Shown piece after piece: positions 3,705 to 63,753 of a stretch of DNA of 64,000 bases. A model generated the notes under the pieces. It was not told the DNA's origin. It made no database searches and saw nothing but the letters and a program-made list of their open reading frames with translations. The stretch comes from Rhizophagus irregularis. Lineage: Eukaryota > Glomeromycota > Glomeromycetes > Glomerales > Glomeraceae. The translations under genes and the position numbers were made by a program. The number at the start of each line of letters is the position of its first letter. The stretch's first letter is position 1. Location of the stretch: positions 3,412,501 through 3,476,500 of the forward strand of contig NC_089447.1 of assembly GCF_026210795.1 (NCBI RefSeq). The letters are read 5' to 3'.

Positions 3705-6139
3705 TTAGGATCTTATTCTCTTTTTTTGAGAGAATGTTTTTGGAGAGTTGTTTGAAAAGGCCAAATTGTCTTCTTGATATATATAGTCACGTTTTCGCCT
3801 CAACTTTACATGTTTGACTTTGAGATCCGTGCAATAATCCGTTAACTTGTTCAATCGATGCTATAAGAAATTAAATCCGATAAGAATGGTGAAATACGTA
3901 TATTGGTAAGGAAGTGAACAACAACAAACCTCTAAAGAACGTAACATTGTGTGCACTGCTTCATATGCAGGCAACTCTTTTGCTGAGGCGGGCAAAGAAA
4001 CCTTATCAATCATTCCAAAACGATAAATTCCCGAAGTTCGGACATCCATTGCATAAAGATTCATTTGTAAGCCTGCGACAAAAAGTTAGCAGTCTTCTAT
4101 CAGAAATTTCTATGCTTCTTAAAATATATTTACCAATTACTTGACATCCGAATACAATGACCTTCATATAATCTATTGGTAAAAGACCAGGAAAGGTTTT
4201 TATTACTCTGTTTATCATATCTCGCATTCCAACCATTAATTTCAGCTTATCGGTCCAAATTTTTTTGGGGCATCCTGCTGGAAGTCCTCCTGAGACTTCG
4301 CAAATGAAACCTTCCAAAGCTGGTCCTGTCGGCAAAGCTATTATAATATCGGTTTTTTGTCCAACGCGTGCACGCTCATCATTAGGATCTTGCTCTTGCC
4401 TACGTCTTTCCTGACTTGCGACTAGCTGTTGCTCGGACCTGAAGTTCCAAAATATTATGTAAATTAATAAGATTAATAAATCTAGCCTGATATGCAAGAC
4501 AGGAACAAGAAAGACCCTTTAAAAATTACCAGTATTTTTGAAATTTTTCTTGATTCGGATCCAGGCTCATCCTGAAAGCAGGGGCAACAAAACAAATCAT
4601 AAGTTCCCCCTCGTTAATTGGTAGTTTGAGGTGTTCAAGATATGACTTTAATATCGTAAGATGAGCATTTAATACAGGTAATGTCTGTTGGGCTTTCAAA
4701 TCCTATTTTTTTAAAAAAAAACACGTGGAACAAGGAATTAATAGGACGAAAATGATAACTAAAAGCATGTGTCATTGTAATTACCTCCATATTATCAAAA
4801 AGATCGTATTCGGATTGGTCAAGATTAACCATATTCCATCCTATATCAAGTCGAAAATCATTAATCAGTTCATTCCATTTCGTAAAAAACATTTTCTTTG
4901 TCGGTTTATGCTGTCCTGTCAAGTCAAGGACCCCCCAGTATGGTGGACTTCAAGAAGAAAGCTGATATTAGTGAATTTATCACGAAACTTATCTTTCAGA
5001 ATCATTATATAAAGGAATACTTACTGGACCTCGGGATTTGTTTTCGGTAAGGATTTGCGCAGGGAACTAAAACATTTTACAATGTCAATTTCGTCAATCA
5101 TAAAAGCGTCCCAAGTTTTTTCCACTGGAATTCCAGATTTTGAATGAGGTGGTGCAGGTTCTTCTTCTTCCCCTCCAACATAAGATAAGTCCACATTGTC
5201 TACAAGTTTATCAAAATATTCGGAATCTTTAACGTAATCATCTCGTGGAGCGGATTTTCCATTTTCATGATCCACATTGTCATCTTCGTGAAGTTGAGAC
5301 GGAGTGATATCACGGGGGAAAAATTCTTTTATTTTTTTCTGTCCGTAATTATCCTAAGGTATTAAAAATTACATCAAACATGGTTATGATCATAGGTTAC
5401 CTTATTACCAGAAGACAATAATAATAAAGCTGGGATTAACTTGCCGCTTTATTTCGTGACATACTGCTTGACAATCCAGCATTGAATGTTCCGCCATTGA
5501 CCGTTCCAATTCCTAGAGAGCTATCCTTAAACGTTGGTTGATGCAAGTGTATTGAAGTTCCAGTAGTCTCTTTACTTTTTTGAGACAGCCAATCTCGTGA
5601 TATCCGGCGATCAGGCCGGAAACCCTTTAATAAGAGAACTTGAAAAATTTAGCAGTATCCTTGACTAATACCTTAAAATTTCTATCTAACTTTTTTTCAT
5701 CACACCAGATCGCCTTGAAGACTTGAACGTAAGACCATCTTGGAGATTGCCCACGCCCCGATGTGGCTAATACTAGGTCATCTTAGAGACTTGAACATCA
5801 GATAATCTTAGAGATCTTCTGTGCCCCAATACTAGCTTCGTAGCTCGTCTTAGAGACTTGAATGACAAAAATCTTGGAGATCTCTGCCACGCCACCAATT
5901 TCTTATCAATATTTTTAACCGCAAAAAATTCTTGAACTTGCCTGTTTATAACGAGCATACAATTCCTGTGCCTTTTTACGCCTATTTCCACTACCAGTTT
6001 CAATTATGTTTTCGAGAGAAGTGAGGTAATATCCGATCTGATCAGTAAATAATTTTGCGTCGCATTCCTCAAGAAACCCCGTAATGGTCCAATCGGAGGA
6101 CTTGCGATCGAAATACTCGTGTACCGACTTTTCCGGCAT
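3705..6139 (-). CDS. Hypothetical protein with PD-(D/E)XK-like core (9 exons, 551 aa model)
   Basis: Exons (minus): 6139-5942, 5624-5465, 5429-5401, 5353-5025, 4947-4785, 4702-4530, 4438-4134, 4072-3930, 3860-3705. All phases agree and the sum is 552 codons with stop. Start: ATG at 6139 just after a TTTCAG acceptor-like site, so an untranslated 5' exon is likely. The C-terminal half has a TDIIIALP strand, then GFICEVSGG, then PKKIWTDKLKLM, the D...ExS...K spacing of PD-(D/E)XK-fold nuclease-like proteins, followed by a helix and VIVFGCQVIGLQMNLYAMDV. The middle is acidic (EEEE) and the tail is basic and Ser/Lys-rich. I believe related unnamed proteins are abundant in Rhizophagus. Whether this one cuts DNA is unknown. 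The first intron appears to use a GC donor (CAG|GCAAGT). The 29-nt exon 3 is the least certain. Confidence 0.7.
5712..5897. repeat. Three degenerate ~60-bp repeats inside intron 1
   Basis: The blocks at about 5712-5774, 5775-5830 and 5831-5897 each contain GACTTGAA, an ATCTTRGAGAT motif and a GCCCC/GCCAC core. The first two end in AATACTAG. They lie wholly inside the first intron of the PD-(D/E)XK-like gene and are GC-richer than the surroundings. Confidence 0.5.
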
Positions 6140-13874: not shown

Positions 13875-14463
13875 TCAGGGGGGAAAGGGGAAAACGAAGG
13901 GTAAGGGAAGGGAAAGGGGAAAACGAAGGGAAGGGGAAAACGAAGGGAAAGGGGAAAACGAAGGGAAAGGGGAAAACGAAGGGAAAGGGGAAAACGAAGG
14001 GAAAGGTGAAAACGAAGGGAAAGGTGAAAACGAAGGGAAAGGGGAAAACGAAGGGAAAGGGGAAAACGAAGGGAAAGGGGAAAACGAAGGGAAAGGGAAA
14101 ACGAAGGGAAAGGGGAAAACGAAGGGAAAGGGAAAACGAAGGGAAAGGGGAAAACGAAGGGAAAGGGGAAAACGAAGGGAAAGGGGAAAACGAAGGGAAA
14201 GGGGAAAACGAAGGGAAAGGGGAAAACGAAGGGAAAGGGGAAAACGAAAGGGGAAGGGAAAACGAAGGGGAAAGGGAGAACGAAGGGAAAGGGAGAACGA
14301 AGGGAAGGGGAGAACGAAGGGAAAAGGGAGAACGAAGGGAAAGGGGAGAACGAAGGGAAAGGGGAGAACGAAGGGAAAGGGGAGAACGAAGGGAAAGGGG
14401 AGAACGAAAGAGAAAACGAAGGGGAAAAGGGAGAACGAAGGGGAAAGGGAAAACGAAGGGAAA
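13875..14463. repeat. Polypurine minisatellite, unit AAAACGAAGGGAAAGGGG
   Basis: About 590 bp consists of tandem, slightly variable 17-18-bp units of GGGAAAGGGGAAAACGAA type; later units read GGGAGAACGAA. The plus strand is almost purely A and G except the C of each ACGAA. Such sequence contains no stop codon in several frames, so the long open frames here on both strands (for example 13855-14640 plus, 13759-14532 minus) are artefacts of composition. The flank at 14464-14640 is A/C-rich with CACACA-type runs. Confidence 0.95.
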
Positions 14464-16146
14464 GCAAGAAAATACACAAACATACACACCACCCACGTAC
14501 AAACCCACACACAAACCTACGAACAACAACACATACCTAAAGGAAGACGTAAAGAAAGGGACCTAAGAATAAAGAGAAGACTTAGACAGAAAGAAGACAG
14601 ACCTAAAAAAAAAGAAAACCGACATATTTATATTACTTAAATTATCAGTTATATATTTACATCATCAAGACTATGTGTTACATGTCATGACTCATATTTG
14701 AAAAAATTAGATTTGTCTCATTTAAGTGTAATAGGCGGGTGAATGTTGGAAACTGTGGAATGTACGTGATACTTAATCCAGCAAGTGCAAAATCATCCCT
14801 TTTAAAAGAAATGAAATAAAAAGTCAGTGTACTATATTTCTTTAGGTTTAATATCATAGATAGAATTTATTATATAAAATTCACGTTTTATATATCTGTT
14901 TTATAAGATTTTAATTAAAATAATATTTTTATCATAGTTTTGTAAAAGTTCTTTTGAAATAAAACAGCAACAATAACTATAATAACAATAATTCTTCAAA
15001 TTCTTTAGAATTCGATCAAAATTTTATTGCTGATTTTTAAAGAATTTTGATATTAGAGTTTGATTTACTTGTTTAAAAGGGTTTTTGGCCTGGATTTAAA
15101 CCAAAATTCACATGGTAATACAAGCAAAATATAAAATATTATTTTTAATTTATTCATTTGTGGTGTTCTCAATCAAAGTAGCCAACCAGATGTGACATCC
15201 ATCTTTATTTGATTATTGCCAAGAAAAGCTGTGCAAAACTTTATGATGGTAAGCTATTAGAGCTATAAGATGCCCTACTTGAAGAATATTTTCTTTGCTT
15301 CCACTTTTGCCATCGGCTTTGATGAATATATGTGAAAGAGAGAATTGCCACAAAAATTATTATTAACCTTGTTTTTTATTCACTAAATAATTTGATTCAT
15401 CATAAAAATTACGTATATTTAAGTATAAAAACTTCCATTATAAGTTGCATCTGAGTTGTAGTTAAAAAAAAAAGAAAATGATAACTCGATAAAAATTTTC
15501 TATATAAGTAATATATAAAAAAAAGTATTAAAAATAGAGCAAAAAAAAGAATTGTTTATAATTCTTTGTACCCAAGAATAATATTTATTATTATTATAAA
15601 TGTATTTACTGTTCAGAAGGAAGAAAAGTTCCTACAAATATTTAAAATATTTTTTTTCTTCAATAATTAAAAGCAAGAAAAAATTTATGAGAATTTTTCT
15701 TAAAAACTTTATTCTTTTATTATAAAATTATAAAATTAATTTATTGACCTCATATTTTCCCCAGAATCCTGCTTCTACTCTGAAATACAACCATATTCTG
15801 TATTTCAAGATATAACTACTATAATATATCGAAAAAAATGAAAAAAATATATATATAAAAAAAAATTCAGTTATATTCGACTGATTAACATTGATCCCGA
15901 TCGATGGATCTCGTTTAATCGATTTATAAATTAAAAAATTCATCAATCTCATCAATAATTATGTAATCGATTACCTTTTATGGTGTATATGAGTAATATG
16001 AGAATATTTATTTAACATGTAATTTTTTTCAAAGCACCTATATTGTCATAACGTCACTTTAATCTTTTTTTTTCGCATAATTTTTTTTTGAGTACCATAT
16101 CTATGTCATCATAACAAACCATTGATCAAAGTCTATTTTATTAGTT
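14464..16146. other. Gene-poor AT-rich stretch
   Basis: No gene is supported. An A/C-rich flank of the minisatellite runs to about 14600. The minus-strand frame at 15728-15955 is low-complexity. A GC-richer patch at 15165-15350 shows no open frame long enough to interpret. Confidence 0.4.
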
Positions 16147-34178: not shown

Positions 34179-34446
34179 TCAGCACATGTACATGCTTATT
34201 CTACTGCAACTTAATTAAAGAAATTTTTTAAGTTTTATTATTTACAATGAAATCTTAAAAATTTTTTACAATGATTTTATAGATGATCTACAATTACCAT
34301 TATTTCCATTTTTAATTACCGGTTTTCCCACGGAAATATATTCTCAAGTTCCGAATAATATTTACTAATATGGCTAATATGGGTTAGGTTAATTTCCGAA
34401 ATAAATAAGTATTGTCGTATGTTTTTCAAACTAAAACTTTTGTACA

Positions 34447-37400
34447 ATGACTAGTAACAAGAATTCTTTTGACCCGACACCAAAATTAAAGTCTAGCCCT
34501 ACTGAAATTTTGTTTATTCCTTTTAATATAAATAAGAGTTATTGTTATTGTGGAAATGAATATCTTAGAAGTAAGAACCAAAAATATTGCATATTTTGCT
34601 TGTTTGTATATACAAAATTTCTTACCGATAATGATACTAGTATTAATACATATTTGGATGTTTACGTTGATGAACATTTTATAATTTCATATTTCAAACA
34701 GATAGTTTCAAATCAATTATTACATAATAGGAATCGTAATTTATATGAAACTTGTAAATTATGTGGTCACAAACGAAAAAGTATTATTTGTCCAGGTTGT
34801 TATATAATTTCTTTCGAATTTAGTGAATCAACTTATAATAATCAACATATTCCAATTCTTTATTTACCATGGTGGGATGCTTATGATCAATGTATAGTTT
34901 GTGGTTTAAAATTAAATTTCTCATCCGATTGTCAAAAATGGTGCAAATATTGTATCATTATTTATATTGGATGTAGATATTGTTTAACAACCAATATTAT
35001 TTTCGGAATTGCAGAAAAATCTCAATGTAAGAAATGTAAAAGAATTTCAACCATCATTGTTCATTTGAATGATATGACAAATATTATTAAGTACTTTTTA
35101 GAAATTAACGCTCATAATTATGATCAGATTTATAATTATGTGAATAATATTGATGAAAATTCTAATTTATTAGAAATATATCATTTTATAAAGAAACTTA
35201 ATTATTTTCCTTTAAGAATTTTATATTCTCAAATCGCAAATTTAGAAAATCCTTTTGACTTAGCTATACCAATTATGTTTATTCCTTTTCATAATAACAT
35301 GTATAGTTGTTATTATTGTAAAAAAATTTATTCTGAAACATCATTATTTAATCAAAGATATTGCAAAGATTGCTTTTATTGGTGTATTAAGTGTTCAACT
35401 AGTAATAAGGATATTAAATGTGCAATTAATAACTTAGATATATGTATAAGCACAACTAATATTAATTGTGATAAACATGAACCAAGAAAATTGGATTTTT
35501 GTGTTCAAGAATGGTGTGAAAATTGTTCTGAGATTACATACTTCAAACAAATTGTCACAGATCAACAATTTGATTCTGGTGATTATTATGAAGAAAATTG
35601 TAGATTATGTGAAAAATTAATTTATATACGAAATGATAATTATGTATCATTTAACTTATGTTCAAATTGTTACCTAATTTCATTTGAATTAATACAATCA
35701 AATTTGATTAACAAACGTATTCCAATTCTTTATTTACCATGGTGGGATACTTATGATAAATGTATAATTTGTTATCAGCCTCTAGAACCAAAAACTGATT
35801 GTCAAAAATGGTGCTCAAATTGTTTTATAATTTATATTGGATGTAGATATTGTTTAACTACAAATATTATTTTTGGATTTATTCATCAATCTCAATGTAA
35901 AAAATGCAAAAGAAATATTTCTGTTAATATTACTGGAAATTATAATATAGATGAATTTATTTATTTTAAAAAAATTAATATTGATAATTATCATCAAATT
36001 AATTGTTACATCAATAATATTAAAGAAAATTCTAACCCATTAAATCCATTAAATATATATAGATATATTAAAGAAAATGTTCATTATAATAATCCAAATA
36101 ATGATTCTTCTTCTTTAATAAAACTAAGACCTGAATGGATTCCATTTTCAAAACTTACAAATTTAGAACAAATAGCTAGAGGAGGACATGGTATTATTCA
36201 TAAAGCTTCATATGATGGAAATATTGTTGCTGTAAAAGAAGTTTTAAATTCTCAAAATACTAGTAGAGATTTTTTAAATGAGGTAAATTTTTTTTAAATT
36301 TTAAAAACTTTTATTTTTTTAATTTAAAACTATTATCTAATTATTTTTTTTATTAATTTTTAGCTAAAATTACTTTATAAATGTTATGATAGGAAATTTG
36401 AATATATTATTAAATGTCATGGTGTTACAAGAAATCTTATGACAAAAGAATTTATGTTTATAATGAAGTATGCAAATGGAGGGGATTTACATAATTATTT
36501 ACAAAAACATTTTACAAAAATTACATGGAAGGATAAATTACATATTTTATGGAGAATTTCGGATGGTCTTCAAGCTATTCATAAACATGATCTCGTACAT
36601 CGAGATTTTCATAGTGGTAATATATTGGTTGAAATAATTGAACATGTAAATCAATATTTAATAGGAGATTTAGGATTATCACAACCTGCAAATAATACTT
36701 TATCAAGCAATGAAATATATGGAGTAATACCTTACATTGCTCCAGAAATATTTAAAGGGAAAACATTTTCAAAAGAATCTGATGTATATAGTATGGGTAT
36801 GATTATGTGGGAATTGACAACCGGTTGTAAACCTTTCGCAAATGTTGAACATGATGTTGATTTAGTTTGTGAAATTATCGATGGAACAAGACCTGAAATT
36901 ACAGAAGATACTCCTGAAGATTTTGCTAATTTAATGAAAAAATGTTGGAATTCTGATCCAAAAAAAAGACCTTTTGCTGAAAAAATTTGCAAAAGTTTAG
37001 AACTTTGGTCAGAAAAAGAAGAAGATGCTAATCAGTTTATTCAAGCTGAAAAAATACGAAAAGATCTAATAAAATATAATTCACTTGGTCCCAAAATGCC
37101 TCATTCAAAAGCAACTTTTACGAGTATATCATTAAGTCCTTTTATTTCCAAGTCTTCAAGTAAAACAATAATTAAAGAATTAAATAATGATAACGGTAAT
37201 TTTATTTTATATGATCACTAATTATTTATTAATTAACATTTAACTCATTTTTTTTTTTTAGAATACGTAACAAGAGAACTTGATTTTGACATAGATGGTA
37301 TTCAAAGGTACGATCAAAATATTACTATATTTAGGCAGAGATTTTATTATTCAAAATTTGAATACTCAGCACACTGTATATTTTATACCAGCCAATCATT

Positions 37401-45033: not shown

Positions 45034-45296
45034 CTGTTAATACTCTAAGCCAATGTCTAAACTTAAGCCAACTCCTAGACCCGAATCTAATGCATAACCT
45101 AAGTCAATGCAAAATCCTACATAATTAAAAAAAGAATTAGCATTTTATTCTTTAACCAATCATCCCTGATCCTAACCCTAACGCTAAGTTAATCATGAAG
45201 CCAACTCCTAACCCTAAACCAACTCCCTAACCCTTACCCTAACCCTAATCTAATTCTAAGCCAACGCCTAACCCTAACCAACGCTAACCAACTCGT
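45034..45296. repeat. Degenerate telomere-like repeats (CCTAACCCTAA)
   Basis: Runs such as CCTAACCCTAA, CCCTAACCCTTACCCTAA and GCCTAACCCTAA, mixed with variants (CTAAGCCAA, CTAACCAA), fill the stretch, most densely at 45170-45290. They match the (TTAGGG)n telomere motif on the other strand. They are degenerate and lie inside the BTB-TLDc cluster, so they are interstitial rather than a chromosome end. Confidence 0.75.
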
Positions 45297-58000: not shown

Positions 58001-58067
58001 TTACATGGTTTTATATTATTATTTTAATAATTTATATCTCATAATTGAAAAAGTTATAAAAAAAAGA

Positions 58068-58252
58068 TTTATTTAAATTATAAACTAAGAAACTTGTAAA
58101 ATATTTTACTACTCTAACCTTAGTGTTTAAATAATTCTAAGTATAATAAAAAAAAGTGAATATAAATACATAAACTAAAAAAAAATGAATTATTTAAATT
58201 ACAAACTAAGAAACTTGTAAAATATTTTACTATGCTAGCCTTAGTGTTTAAA
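58068..58252. repeat. Imperfect direct repeat of a ~65-bp segment
   Basis: AAACTAAGAAACTTGTAAAA, then TATTTTACTA and CTTAGTGTTTAAATAA, occur at about 58080-58135 and again at about 58202-58255, about 121 bp apart. They lie just downstream of the last exon of the micro-exon kinase. Confidence 0.75.
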
Positions 58253-58346
58253 TAAATTTAAAAAGAACAAAATAAATTTGAATGTTATAATATCAAATAT
58301 TACTTAAAAAAAACTATAAATTTTTTTAAAAGCAAACAATGATTGG

Positions 58347-61300
58347 TTAATTTTCATCTGCTTTAATATCTAAATTAAATAATTAAATATTAAATAAAAT
58401 TAATTTCACATAAATAATATGCAAGATTAATTCTTTATATATCATAATACATACCTAATGATCCCAGACCCTTAATTATATAATCATTCAAATCTTCACT
58501 TACTAGCATTTCATTTGCTTTTACACTAGCTTGTGAATCTTCACTTTCAGGAATTTCATTCAACTTTTTACTGTTACTTTCATCTGTTTTAATAAATTAA
58601 TTAATTAATTAATTTCATATAAATAATTTGCAAGATTAATTTTTTTTAATTATAGTATATACCTAATGACCTCAAATCTCTAATTACACAATCATTCAAA
58701 TCTGAATGACTTGCATGATATGCTTGTGAATTTTCACTTTCAAGAACTTCATTCAATTTTTTACTAGTAAAATCAAGTAAACGACTTTTAAAACAAGCTT
58801 TAGGATGAGATTTAGTAGCAAAATTGTTTTGCCCAATTGATGCATTTATAAATTCCATAATGTTGCTTTTTAATTCTTCATTAATGTTATCATTACCAGG
58901 ATGGAAAATCCAATTTTCAATAACTTTTTTCACTTCTGAAGTAGATGGCCTTTTTAATGGATCTTCATTCCAACATTTTTTCATTAAATTTACATAACAC
59001 TGTGGAGTATTTTCAATAATTTCAGGACGTTCACCTTTACAAATACTTAAACTAAGTTGAAGATCATGTGCTCTATTATTAAATGGTGGTACTCCAGATG
59101 TAAACTCCCACATAATCATAGAAAAACTATATATATCACTGGCTGGAGTATAAGATTTGCCTCTTAAAACTTCAGGAGCCATAAATGATATAACACCATA
59201 AATATCATATTTTCCCAAAAACGATTTTACAGGTTGACATAATCCTAAATCACTAATATAAATCATTTCCTTATTCAGATTATTATGATTTAAAATATTC
59301 CCATCATGAAAATCACAATGAATAAGATTTTTTTCATGTATCTTACTAAGTCCAGAAATAATTTCATACAACAAATATAATTTTTGATTCCAATTATTTG
59401 TGACTATATTTGCTAAATTTTCTCTTAAATTACCTTTATTTGCATAATCCATTACTACCATATATCTCAATGTATCTGGATCTTTTGTGAATCCATAAAA
59501 TTCTATAATATCACTTGAAGTTAAAACACTTGTATGATATTCCCACTATAAAAAATAATAATAATTTATTAATATAAATAAATTTTAATTTAAATTAAAA
59601 ATAAATAATAATATACTATCATACTTCTTTCAAAAATTCATTTAAATTTTCATTTAAATTCTTGTGACATTTAAGGATTACTTCTACTTCTCTATTCTTT
59701 AACCAAGTAGCTTTATATATAGTACCAAATCCTCCCTCATTAAGATATTCAACATTTTTAAAATTGTTATAAGGAATCCATCTTAATTTTTTTTCAAAAA
59801 TAAAATCATCTATAATTGTATCACCACTTTTCCCAAATCTATAAATTTAAATAATTAAATTATATTATAGATTGTATTATAATTTATACAAAATAAATTA
59901 TTGCTTACTCTAAAATTTAAATAGGAATTTAATAAATAAGTCTTAATTTTTAGATAAATACACATAATAATCTATGATTTACAACTTACTGACTAAAGTA
60001 ACAGATATTTTTTAAATAAAAGAATTCAGTTAACAAAAAATATTATATAAAATATATAACAATAGAAATACTTACAAGCTAGATCATAAATAATTTTTAA
60101 ATAAAGAAATTAGTTTAAATTATATGTAAAATTTTATAACAATAAGTAATAATAGAATTAAATAAATGACTTATAACTTACAATCTATTACATAAATAAA
60201 GAAATTAGTTAGTTTAAATTATATTTAAATATTATAACAATAAGTAATAATAGAATTAAATAAATAACTTATAACTTACCAACTAAAATAAATTACAAAA
60301 TAATTTTTTAAATAAAGAAATTAGTTAGTTTAAATTATATGTAAATATTATAACAATAAGTAATAATAGAATTAAATAAATAACTTACAAGCTATATTAT
60401 TTAATAATTTTTTAAATAAAGAAATTAGTTAGTTTAAATTATATTTAAATATTATAAACAATAAGTAATAATAGAATTAAATAAATAACTTATAACTTAC
60501 GATCTATTAAATAAATAAAGAAATTAGTTAGTTTAAATTATATGTAAATATTATAAAAATAAGTAATAATAGAATTAAATAAATAACTTATAACTTACGA
60601 TCTATTAAATAAATAAAGAAATTAGTCAGTTTAAATTATATGTAAATATTATAACAATAAGTAATAATAAATTAAATAAATAACTTATAACTTACGATCT
60701 ATTAAATAAATAAAGAAATTAGTTAGTTTAAATTATATTTAAATATTATAACAATAAGTAATAATAAATTAAATAAATAACTTATAACTTACGATCTATT
60801 AAATAAATAAATTAGTTAGTTTAAATTATATGTAAATATTATAGAATAGAATTAAATAAATAACTTACATCCTATATTATTTAATAATTTTTTAAATAAA
60901 GGAATTAGTTAGTTTAAATTATATGTAAATATTATACAATAAGTAATAATAAACTAAATAAATAACTTATAACTTACGATCTATTAAATAAATAAAGAAA
61001 TTAGTTAGTTTAAATTATATATAAATATTATAACAATAAGTAATAATAGAATTAAATAAATAACTTATAACTTACCAACTAAAATAAATTACAAAAAAAT
61101 TTTTTAAATAAAGGAATTAGTTAGTTTAAATTACATGTAAATATTATAACAATAAGTAATAATAGCATTAAATAAATAACCTACAAGCTATATTATTTAA
61201 TAATTTTTTAAATAAAGAAATAATTAGTTTAAATTATATGTCAATAAGTAATATTAAAATTAAACAAATAACTTACACCCTATATTATTTAATAATTTTT

Positions 61301-63753
61301 TAAATAAAGAAATTAGTTAGTTTAAATTATATATAAGTATTATAACAATAAGTAATAATAGAATTAAATAAATAACTTACTTCCTGTATTATTTAATAAT
61401 TTTTTAAATAAAGAAATTAGTTATTTTAAATTATATGTAAATATTATAACAATAAGTAATAATAGAATTAAATGAATAACTTATAACTTACCAACTAAAA
61501 TAAATTACAAAATAATTTTTTAAATAAAGAAATTAGTTACTAGTTTAAATTATATATAATATTATAACAATAAGTAACAATAGAATTAAATAAATAACTT
61601 ATAACTTACGATCTATTAAATAAATAAAGAAGTTAGTTAGTTTAAATTATATGTAAATATTATAACAATAAGTAACAATAGAATTAAATAAATAACTTAC
61701 TACCCTCTATATTATTTAATAATTTTTTAAATAAAGAAATTAGTTAGTTTAAATTATATATAAATATTATAACAATAAGTAATAATAGGATTAAATAAAT
61801 AACTTATAACTCACGATCTATTAAATAAATAAAGAAATTAGTTAGTTTAAATTATATGTAAACATTATAACAATAAGTAATAATAGAATTAAATAAATAA
61901 CCTACAAGCTATATTATTTAATAATTTTTTAAATAAAAAAATTAGTTAGTTTAAATTATATGTCAATAAGTAATAATAAAATTTAATAAATAACTTACAT
62001 CCTATATTATTTAATAATTTTTTAAACAAAGAAATTAGTTAGTTTAAATTATATGCAAATATTATAACAATAAGTAATAATAAAATTAAATAAATAACTT
62101 ATAACTTACGATCTATTAAATAAATAAAGAAATAAGTTATTTTAAATTATATGTAAATATTCTAACAATAAGTAATAATAGAATTAAATCAATAACTTAT
62201 AACTTACCAACTAAAATAAATTACAAAATAATTTTTTAAATAAAGAAATTAGTTAGTTTAAATTATATGTAAATATTATAACAATAGAATTAAATAAATA
62301 ACTTATAACTTACGATCTATTAAATAAATAAAGAAATTAGTTAGTTTTAATTATATGTTAATATTATAACATTAAGTAATAATAGAATTAAATAAATAAC
62401 TTACTCCCTATATTATTTAATAATTTTTTAAATAAAGAAATTAGTAAGTTTAAATTATTTGTAAACATTATAACAATAAGTAATAATAGAATTAAATAAA
62501 TAATTTATAACTTACGATCTATTAAATAAATAAAGAAATTAGTTAGTTTAAATTATATGTAAATATTATAACAATAAGTAATAATAAAATTAAATAAATA
62601 ACTTACCCCCTATATTATTTAATTATTTTTTAAATAAAGAAATTAAGTGTAAATATTATAAACAATAAGTAATAATAAAATTAAATAAATAACCTATAAC
62701 TTACGATCTATTAAATAAATAAAGAAATTAGTTAGTTTAAATTATATGTAAATATTATAACAATAAGTAATAATGGAATTAAATAAATAACTTACTCCCT
62801 ATATTATTTAATAATTTTTTAAATAAAGAAATTAGTTAGTTTAAATTATATGTAAATATTATAACAATAAGTAACAATAAAATTAAATAAATAACTTACT
62901 CCCTATATTATTTAATAATTTTTTAAATAAAGAAATTAGTTAGTTTAAATTATATGTAAATATTAGAACAATAAAGTAATAATAGAATTAAATAAATAAC
63001 TTACTCCCTATATTATTTAATGATTTTTTAAATAAAGAAATTAGTTAAATTATATAAATAACATAAATATAGATATCATATAACTTACACCCTGTAGTAT
63101 TATTAATTAGTTAGATATAAAGATAATATAAAAGTATTTACTGTAAATTATATATTACTTACAATCTAGTTATTTAAATTAAAAATATAATTAGTTGAAT
63201 TATGTAAAATATTAAACAAATAAATATAATATTTATATTGTAACTTACCATCTGTAATACAATTAATTATTAAATAGTTATTTAAACAAAGAATTTAGTT
63301 ATTTGAATGTTGTGTAGAATAAATAAAGTAAAGGACTAAAGATTTAAATAACTGACAACTTACCAACTTCAGATTATTAATTATTGAATAAATTATTTAG
63401 TTATATGGAATACAATAAAAATAATAAGTATTTGAATTGTTTATAAATAAAAATTTAATATTTCAGTTTGTTTGATATACTTTTAGATTCTCCAGTGCCA
63501 CTTTCTTCAAATTCTTCAATATTAATGGAAACTAGTTTTGTTATATTGCAAATTTGGTTTAATTATATTTAATTATTTACAATTAAGTTTTTTTAATAAA
63601 TAAAAATCTTAATATTTCAATTTTGTTTTGTATATTATATTTACCTTCAGGTTCTTTGGTATATACAAAAACATTGCAAGTTTATTTTAATAATTTTGAA
63701 TAATTCTAATTTATATTATTATTCATGTTATATGCTTTACCTTTACCATCCAT
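58347..63753 (-). CDS. Kinase gene with micro-exon array (43-exon model, 476 aa)
   Basis: Model (minus): exon 1 63753-63741 (MDGK), exon 2 63653-63645, exon 3 63531-63481 (SINIEEFEESGTGESK), then 35 micro-exons at 63366-59990, a single base A at 59909, and large exons 59838-59625, 59545-58663, 58583-58455 and 58369-58347. Kinase motifs: NEGGFGTIYKA, ILKCHK, YMVVMDYANKGNLRENL, HCDFHDGNIL (Cys for Arg in HRD), SDLGLCQP (DLG), MAPEVL, DIYSFSMIMWEFTSGVPPF, MKKCWNEDPLKRP. Catalytic Lys and Asp are present. The kinase exons have no in-frame ATG before the middle of the domain, so an upstream start is needed. The 129-nt exon 42 repeats the end of exon 41 (SKKLNE...DLNDxxI...SLG). The large exons are firm; the micro-exons rest on splice consensus and frame. 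Confidence 0.7.
59990..63366 (-). repeat. Tandem intron/micro-exon array, ~35 units of 74-118 bp
   Basis: Each unit on the minus strand reads acceptor TAG (or CAG/AAG), three exon bases, donor GTAAGT (two GTAGGT, one GTGAGT), an AT-rich interior with AAACTAACTAA as a branch-site candidate, then the next acceptor. The exon bases from left-most transcribed: TTG, ATG, ATT, GGT, GGA, GGA, GGA, ATC, GGG, ATC, GGA, ATC, TTG, ATC, GAT, CTT, ATC, AGGGTA, ATC, TTG, GAA, GGT, CTT, TTG, ATC, GAT, ATC, ATC, ATC, ATC, CTT, TTG, ATT, CTT, TCA. Positions run 63366-63364, 63251-63249, 63165-63163, 63091-63089, 63007-63005 and so on to 59992-59990. Units differ by indels inside the introns but not at the exon borders. 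Confidence 0.9.

Follow-up and report, generated by a model that had tools for sequence, protein, structure and literature searches.

On the minus strand of a 64,000-nucleotide (nt) stretch of the Rhizophagus irregularis genome (assembly GCF_026210795.1, contig NC_089447.1, positions 3,412,501 to 3,476,500; hereafter the window), a protein kinase gene is preceded by a tandem array of units of about 100 bp, each of which carries a splice acceptor and a splice donor only a few bases apart. The locus raises the question of whether this array is a repeat of no coding consequence or a chain of exons one codon long. Judging from the DNA, we consider it highly probable that the array is a chain of single-codon exons that would be spliced, in order, into the N-terminal segment of the kinase. 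The sequence-only reading of the window had described 35 units with exactly one six-base exception, and both this count and the two in-frame peptides that it gave (WWRRNRDRNLDR and SYQGNLGRSFDRYHHHP) were reproduced: from 63366 to 59990 there are 35 AG-exon-GTRRG units, 34 with a 3-nt exon and a single one, at 61706-61701, with an exon of 6 nt. It had also assigned a GTAAGT donor to every unit, which is true of 32 of the 35; the remaining donors are GTAGGT (twice) and GTGAGT (once). The parts of the gene, all on the minus strand, are as follows.

63747..63753, minus strand: exon 1, ATG GAT G, with the predicted start codon, ending in phase 1 (from sequence and paralogue alignment).
63645..63670, minus strand: relic of exon 2, recognized by eye and known from several paralogues; its acceptor region is deleted here, and it is probably skipped, which would be frame-neutral.
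63481..63531, minus strand: exon 3, acidic, VSINIEEFEESGTGESK, ending in phase 1 in the gene model.
59990..63366, minus strand: array of 35 micro-exons with introns of 71-115 nt, predicted to encode IDDWWRRNRDRNLDRSYQGNLGRSFDRYHHHPFDSF.
63089..63366, minus strand: 5' constant micro-exons of the array, TTG-ATG-ATT-GGT.
61701..61706, minus strand: the sole 6-nt exon, AGGGTA, which can alternatively be read as a 4-nt match.
59909..59909, minus strand: 1-nt exon A (TTTTAG-A-GTAAGC), between the last triplet and the kinase exon, required for the kinase frame.
59625..59838, minus strand: kinase exon A, FGKSGDTIIDDFI...GGFGTIYKA...
58663..59545, minus strand: kinase exon B, the catalytic core, with HCDFHDGN and SDLG.
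58455..58583, minus strand: exon C, an acidic tail.
58347..58369, minus strand: exon D, which includes the stop codon.

Joining exon 1, exon 3, the 35 array exons, the 1-nt exon and the four kinase exons yields an open frame of 471 amino acids with a terminal stop codon, bearing out the earlier claim that the triplets lie in phase 1 and remain open through all 35 units. Phase 1 is where exon 3 leaves off, and it is also the phase that the kinase exon needs, together with the 1-nt exon; if this base is omitted, the reading frame meets a stop about nine codons inside the kinase exon. The triplets had been described as running straight into this exon; the frame is indeed open as far as the kinase, but only if the additional base at 59909 is included. 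The predicted protein begins with an acidic N-terminus, MDVSINIEEFEES, and matches PF07714 (PK_Tyr_Ser-Thr; E 2.5e-42, residues 29-278 of 285). The putative catalytic motifs VILK, HCDFHDGN and SDLG are present. If spliced as modelled, the gene would devote 42 exons to 471 residues, 34 of them single codons and one an obligatory single nucleotide, and to our knowledge few genes are so finely divided. In many paralogues the 5' constant exons read CTC/CTT-TTG/TTA-ATG-ATT-GGT; the first exon of this set, CTC/CTT, was not found in the window copy. A 121-bp tandem repeat lies immediately downstream of the kinase gene (58058-58276).

Exon length is strongly constrained, both in the window and throughout the genome. 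In the whole window, the expression AG-NNN-GTRRG[TA] has 36 matches on the minus strand, of which 34 fall inside the array, and none on the plus strand. Applied to the array with other exon lengths, it finds no exon of 1, 2, 5, 7, 8 or 9 nt and one each of 4 and 6 nt (the 1-nt exon, with its GTAAGC donor, is left uncounted by this expression). The genome (146,748,485 bases in 32 contigs) was then searched with a pattern of two successive exons and three donors, GTAAGT-N(65-95)-AG-exon-GTAAGT-N(65-95)-AG-exon-GTAAGT, which gave 2,302 matches for 3-nt exons and 24 when reversed; for exon lengths of 4, 5 and 2 nt there was a single match each, versus 2, 8 and 8 in reverse. Among 21 arrays that were not selected for exon length (L001-L020 and that of the window), the parser read 646 exons, of which 619 have 3 nt, including two, upstream of L008 and L018, that lie outside arrays and were later dropped. 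The rest comprise 21 terminal 1-nt exons, two 6-nt exons and four frame-breaking exons (two in L009, two in L011). Over all 34 parsed arrays, with weak-donor units filled in as 3 nt, 1,109 of 1,148 exons have this length, the remainder being 29 of 1 nt, six of 6 nt and the four that break the frame.

The window array is one of a large genome-wide set, which, like the 1-nt exon, goes beyond what had been noticed in the window. Comparing a 501-base piece of the array with the genome gave at least 363 matches; among those listed, about 40 separate arrays were grouped by eye, and 20 of these (L001-L020) were fetched. All 20, chosen by DNA similarity, lie upstream of the same kinase exon and on the same strand, with main kinase pieces that are ~60-88% identical to the window kinase. 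Of seven loci taken from the exon-pattern listing, six have the array before the same kinase exon, again on the same strand, with kinases that are mostly more diverged (~51-82%), and the seventh, L026, is a different gene. Three further loci were chosen by kinase protein similarity alone, and an array is present at each. The distance from the last unit to the kinase match is 150-250 bases in 29 of 30 arrays (window included) and 899 bases in L022. A terminal 1-nt exon is likewise found in 29 of the 30 parsed kinase arrays (27 A, one T and one C), the exception being L022, where the parsed stretch ended too early and where there are candidate 1-nt exons at 4082 and 4304. ATT-GGT is among the first six exons in 26 of the 30; in L034 the array starts close to the border of the stretch fetched. 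In the genome, the string AAATTTTAGAGTAAGT, with the 1-nt exon inside it, has 87 matches and none in reverse. With a limit of 1.5 kb and among the kinase matches listed, 76 of the 87 sit 289-681 bases upstream of a same-strand kinase match, and the exact string is found at 76 of 136 kinase places; L027 is one of the 11 unmatched sites, its kinase being outside the kinase matches listed. With ~11.5 three-donor matches per fetched stretch (390 in 34), extrapolation from the genome-wide 2,302 suggests roughly 200 arrays. L004 and L014 each carry an unrelated insertion, transposon-like by eye, within an array intron.

A simpler explanation for such an array would be a satellite or minisatellite with splice-like sequence by chance, functionless and homogenized by recombination. 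Tandem Repeats Finder does call a repeat of 97-104 bp with 79-87% matches in the window array, the intron bodies are ~97.7% identical over locally aligned matches, and runs of exons are repeated in six of the 34 arrays (ten exons in L034, for example), the window array not being among them. Against this stand the sense orientation and constant position of all 20 arrays found by DNA similarity, the retention of the 3-nt rule by different intron sequences in unrelated genes and a non-random codon order, both described below, and we regard a functionless satellite as extremely improbable.

The order of the triplets bears most directly on whether they are translated. In phase 1, a stop codon arises only where an exon ending in T precedes an exon starting with AA, AG or GA. 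Across the 30 kinase arrays (906 triplets), this occurs at one of 876 adjacent junctions, in L019, compared with 28.3 expected from 5,000 within-array shuffles (standard deviation 4.0, minimum 14). When distinct junctions were counted once per array, which allows for block duplications, one of 708 gave a stop versus 25.6 after shuffling (minimum 15 in 1,000 shuffles). With strong donors only and neighbours no more than 150 nt apart, the figures are one of 743 versus 24.0 (minimum 11 in 3,000 shuffles). Strong-donor neighbours lying further apart would create stops in five of 61 pairs (one in L015, two in L023 and two in L024), and all five vanish once the intervening weak-donor units are counted as exons. 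Of L009 and L011, only the units ahead of the first frame-breaking exon entered these tests. No other evidence speaks as strongly as this non-random order for the meeting of adjacent triplets in the mRNA, including those with weak donors; together with the length controls, it upholds the proposal that exon length and codon order are under selection.

Phase 1 was chosen for the kinase arrays because the flanking exons fit this phase only. The two other phases were tried and set aside: phase 2 gives 99 stops in 593 triplets and phase 0 two, compared with one in phase 1. Stops in a single-frame parse were traced to the 4- and 2-nt units in L009 and L011 and to an uncounted weak-donor unit in L015; that in L019 is real. 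The encoded segments are rich in D, R, W and N (12.0, 10.6, 8.8 and 8.4%), and this make-up was not used as evidence because it largely follows from exon and base composition.

Could the whole array instead leave the transcript as one intron of ~3.5 kb, or by recursive splicing, with the triplets as mere stepping stones that are never translated? The frame of the window gene does remain open when the array is omitted entirely and the 1-nt exon kept; moreover, exons of 3 nt are hard to splice, and recursive splice sites pair an acceptor with a donor. Recursive sites, however, need no 3-nt spacer, yet the 3-nt spacing is near absolute, and untranslated triplets would have no reason to avoid stops at adjacent phase 1 junctions. 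An array before an AIG1-type GTPase gene, described below, also encodes a methionine and a poly-proline stretch in the only phase that its flanks need. We therefore judge removal of the array as a single intron, or by recursive steps, to be improbable.

If the triplets are translated, they might still be spliced in varying combinations to give many isoforms per kinase gene, which would be compatible with an ordered chain of single-codon exons. The exons are frame-neutral, weak donors (GTAAA, GTTAG, GTATG and GC) are scattered through the arrays, and there is a precedent in the nank genes of Tuber melanosporum, discussed below. That any subset could be skipped, as the sequence-only reading had it, holds with respect to frame: in the window copy, 33 of 34 single skips and 579 of 595 skips of contiguous runs remain free of stops. 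The pattern of stop avoidance nevertheless points to consecutive inclusion. Across the 30 kinase arrays, triplets at lag 2 would create stops in 16 of 846 cases, intermediate between the single stop at adjacent junctions and the 20 to 33 at each of lags 3-8, where avoidance is no longer visible. Since stops are avoided at lag 1, less so at lag 2 and not visibly beyond, inclusion of consecutive exons looks like the selected form; the five stops that skipping of weak-donor units would cause, all of which disappear on inclusion, likewise suggest selection for the full chain. Reading from sequence, combinatorial skipping would be possible but is unsupported, and extensive isoform variation strikes us as rather unlikely.

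Arrays of this kind also occur outside the main kinase family. Four precede other genes, which encode an AIG1-type GTPase, a Sel1-repeat protein, a protein without a family name and another type of kinase. One of the four was found through the three-donor listing as well as a pattern with a CAG acceptor (22 matches, none reversed) and the other three through the CAG pattern, so that all four come from patterns that require 3-nt exons in neighbouring units. Two of these arrays are located as follows.

G000, C1:1723681-1731445 (L028, L026, L029): array before the AIG1-type GTPase gene, 69 triplets, 64 of them with strong donors.
L031, C10:2415600-2423600, minus strand: array before the Sel1-repeat gene, whose open reading frame (ORF) matches Sel1 with E 4.4e-48.

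The first of these precedes a 931-amino-acid coiled-coil ORF whose AIG1 domain is matched with E 1.7e-17. There are three stops in phase 0, six in phase 1 and none in phase 2, and it is phase 2 that fits both a 26-nt exon and the ORF downstream. In this phase the array would read M-DERLWEELEESLKGLLPPTIPPPPPLPGRLP...SPPPLPGRLP... into the coiled coil, with a poly-proline stretch that we take to resemble formin FH1-type ligands. The Sel1 array has no stop in the phase required by its flanks, compared with 4.04 after shuffling (eight of 5,000 shuffles were equally low); an exon of apparently 15 nt lies close to its end, and a block of seven exons is repeated. The array L030 precedes a 586-amino-acid ORF without a Pfam match, and L032 places 18 triplets before the other type of kinase, with 0, 1 and 0 stops in phases 0, 1 and 2.

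Variation among units was examined in 640 triplets of 21 arrays, sorted by the last bases before the exon, a construction that limits variation just upstream; the comparison is ungapped, such that indels inflate the outer flanks. In class i (n = 219), diversity at the three exon bases is 0.65, 0.38 and 0.66, versus 0 to 0.33 at the 22 bases on either side. The corresponding exon values are 0.16, 0.05 and 0.57 in class ii (n = 114), with flanks of up to 0.51, and 0.15, 0.17 and 0.34 in class iii (n = 75), with flanks of up to 0.65; 232 of the 640 triplets fell in no class. Repeats of exon runs exceeded all 100 shuffles in six of 34 arrays, with lengths of seven exons in L009, five in L011, five in L013, seven in L031, ten in L034 and nine in the AIG1-gene array, and these runs indicate that arrays grow when blocks of units are duplicated. 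No exon run in the window array was repeated beyond 100 shuffles. A TTG/TTA unit with a GC donor (GCAAGT) is present in eight copies within the single array L009.

Several observations weigh against an ordered chain of single-codon exons or limit what the counts can say. Ambiguous readings are resolved by the parser in favour of 3 nt, and the 30 kinase arrays include 67 weak-donor units (33 of them in L023 and L024) that were filled in later and forced to 3 nt. L021-L027 and L030-L032 were selected by patterns demanding 3-nt exons and are thus no test of the length rule. Two of the 21 arrays in the first set, L009 (two 4-nt exons) and L011 (two of 2 nt and one of 0 nt), have units that would break the frame if included, and L019 has its one in-frame stop. 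Class i shows clear excess diversity in the exon, class ii does so at the third exon base, and class iii does not. The shuffle tests are not significant for the AIG1-gene array (0 versus 0.74 stops) or for L030 (0 versus 1.52); with the stop test this weak, the AIG1 case is carried by the phase agreement and the encoded peptide. Finally, with intron bodies so nearly identical, invariance of AG and GT is by itself weak evidence. An anchor-based test of the splice sites was for this reason given no weight, even though AG-3-GTRRG is present in 302 of the 323 spacers that were scored, another 60 having been excluded because of their length. The remaining spacers include 17 with AG-3 and a weak or GC donor, two with another exon length and two that are broken; eight of the 17 are copies of the TTG/TTA-GCAAGT unit of L009, and the loose expression used also places the 6-nt exon of the window and one 4-nt exon of L009 among them.

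The sequence statistics show that each unit of ~100 bp carries one codon between its acceptor and its donor, and that the units are read in phase 1 and in order, starting from exon 3. The start of the segment is largely constant, often A-L/F-D/N-D-W, as is its end, often F-E-F-G-K-S-G; the part between them varies, and the final 1-nt exon sets the frame of the kinase. We propose further that the introns, of ~95 nt and with a CTAAC motif that would act as branch site, may be recognized by intron definition and removed one after another, each exon being joined to its neighbour before or during use of the next donor. Under exon definition a 3-nt exon would lead to crowding, which sequential splicing of this type would avoid. 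Recombination between units probably lengthens and shortens the array; at ~100 bp the DNA repeat offers enough length for homologous exchange, and each unit alters the protein by a single residue. The segment of 9-56 residues before the TKL-type kinase domain may, with less confidence, be a diversified recognition or docking segment of an expanded kinase family, and this role is the least certain step of the proposal. In the AIG1-type GTPase, Sel1-repeat and unnamed genes, the same architecture would encode other N-terminal segments.

Elsewhere in the window, a second gene that appears kinase-like by eye lies on the plus strand (34435-37218), and the AG-NNN-GTRRG[TA] pattern reveals no array of codon-sized exons there. 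A G-rich 18-bp tandem repeat (GAAGGGAAAGGGGAAAAC, ~32 copies) at 13881-14464 is open in several frames, and a degenerate, interstitial, telomere-like CCCTAA/CCAACC repeat lies at 45198-45289. Between 42940 and 55770, four similar ORFs share SLEEYDTSDIIKI(L/M)IAANELSLQELITHLQSFL and look BTB/BACK-like by eye.

The sequence-only reading knew of no array of this kind in a fungus, which does not stand given the nank genes of Tuber melanosporum, for which Iotti et al. 2012 is said to be the primary report. In schistosomes, micro-exon genes have many tiny, frame-neutral exons that are larger than single codons, and their products are mostly small secreted proteins; the arrays described here share the tiny, frame-neutral exons and differ in that these are single codons joined to a kinase domain. 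The nank genes, which encode NLRs of the NACHT-ANK type, are described as containing dozens of alternatively spliced 3-bp mini-exons (PMC4986451, PMC9815663, PMC10197012, PMC3689799); in the window gene, 34 of 35 array exons have this length. On these accounts, tens of codon-sized exons per gene, an expanded family, a proposed role in recognition and a fungal host are common to the two systems, and arrays of codon exons are already known in kind from Tuber. The genes differ, however, being NLRs there and, by Pfam, kinases, an AIG1-type GTPase and a Sel1-repeat gene here, with no NACHT-ANK. The diversified part is a C-terminal recognition domain in Tuber, whereas the arrays here are N-terminal to the conserved domain. 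Alternative splicing is reported for nank, while the present arrays, from a distant lineage and with a 1-nt exon in the kinases, are known from sequence alone. Single tiny exons have been reported as spliced in Arabidopsis (1 nt; PMC4674806) and in homothorax of Drosophila (3 bp; PMC7392893), each a single exon as opposed to the many of an array. Xlr2 of Trichoderma virens provides a functional micro-exon in a filamentous fungus (PMC11121469), in this case one switch exon in a transcription factor. Among the open-licence papers listed, in the parts covered, there was no report of codon-sized exon arrays in Rhizophagus and no precedent for the gene families, the N-terminal position, the scale or the 1-nt exon.

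An expanded tyrosine-kinase-like (TKL) family is described for R. irregularis (PMC6123716, PMC8647823, PMC10234402), and the window gene belongs to it by its PF07714 match; codon-sized exons go unmentioned in the available passages of these three papers. Expansion is reported for the kinase, BTB, Sel1 and Kelch families (PMC8647823), which agrees with the kinase and Sel1 genes identified here by Pfam and with window ORFs that, by eye, look BTB-like and kelch-like, and high-copy families of this fungus have been proposed to serve environmental perception and interaction (PMC8647823).

For this fungus, the arrays would have a practical consequence: in a model plant symbiont, the N-termini of many kinases would probably escape standard gene prediction and read alignment. 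The published annotation is described as relying on STAR, BRAKER and PASA for gene models and on minimap2 for read mapping (PMC10234402), and tools of this type are unlikely to recover exons of 1 and 3 nt. The arrays would also offer many natural test cases for how the spliceosome handles such exons. In evolutionary terms, the length of DNA that recombines (~100 bp) would be uncoupled from the change in the protein (one residue), allowing fast change in length and sequence without frameshift. We put forward, as a tentative extension that may well prove too broad, that exons of one codon serve R. irregularis as a general means of diversification, in which ~200 arrays with around 6,000 codon-sized exons in total (each figure a rough extrapolation), spread over several unrelated families, would couple a recombining unit of ~100 bp to a payload of one residue; the N-terminal segments might then act as the recognition parts of a kinase repertoire, to which differential inclusion of exons could add somatic diversity.

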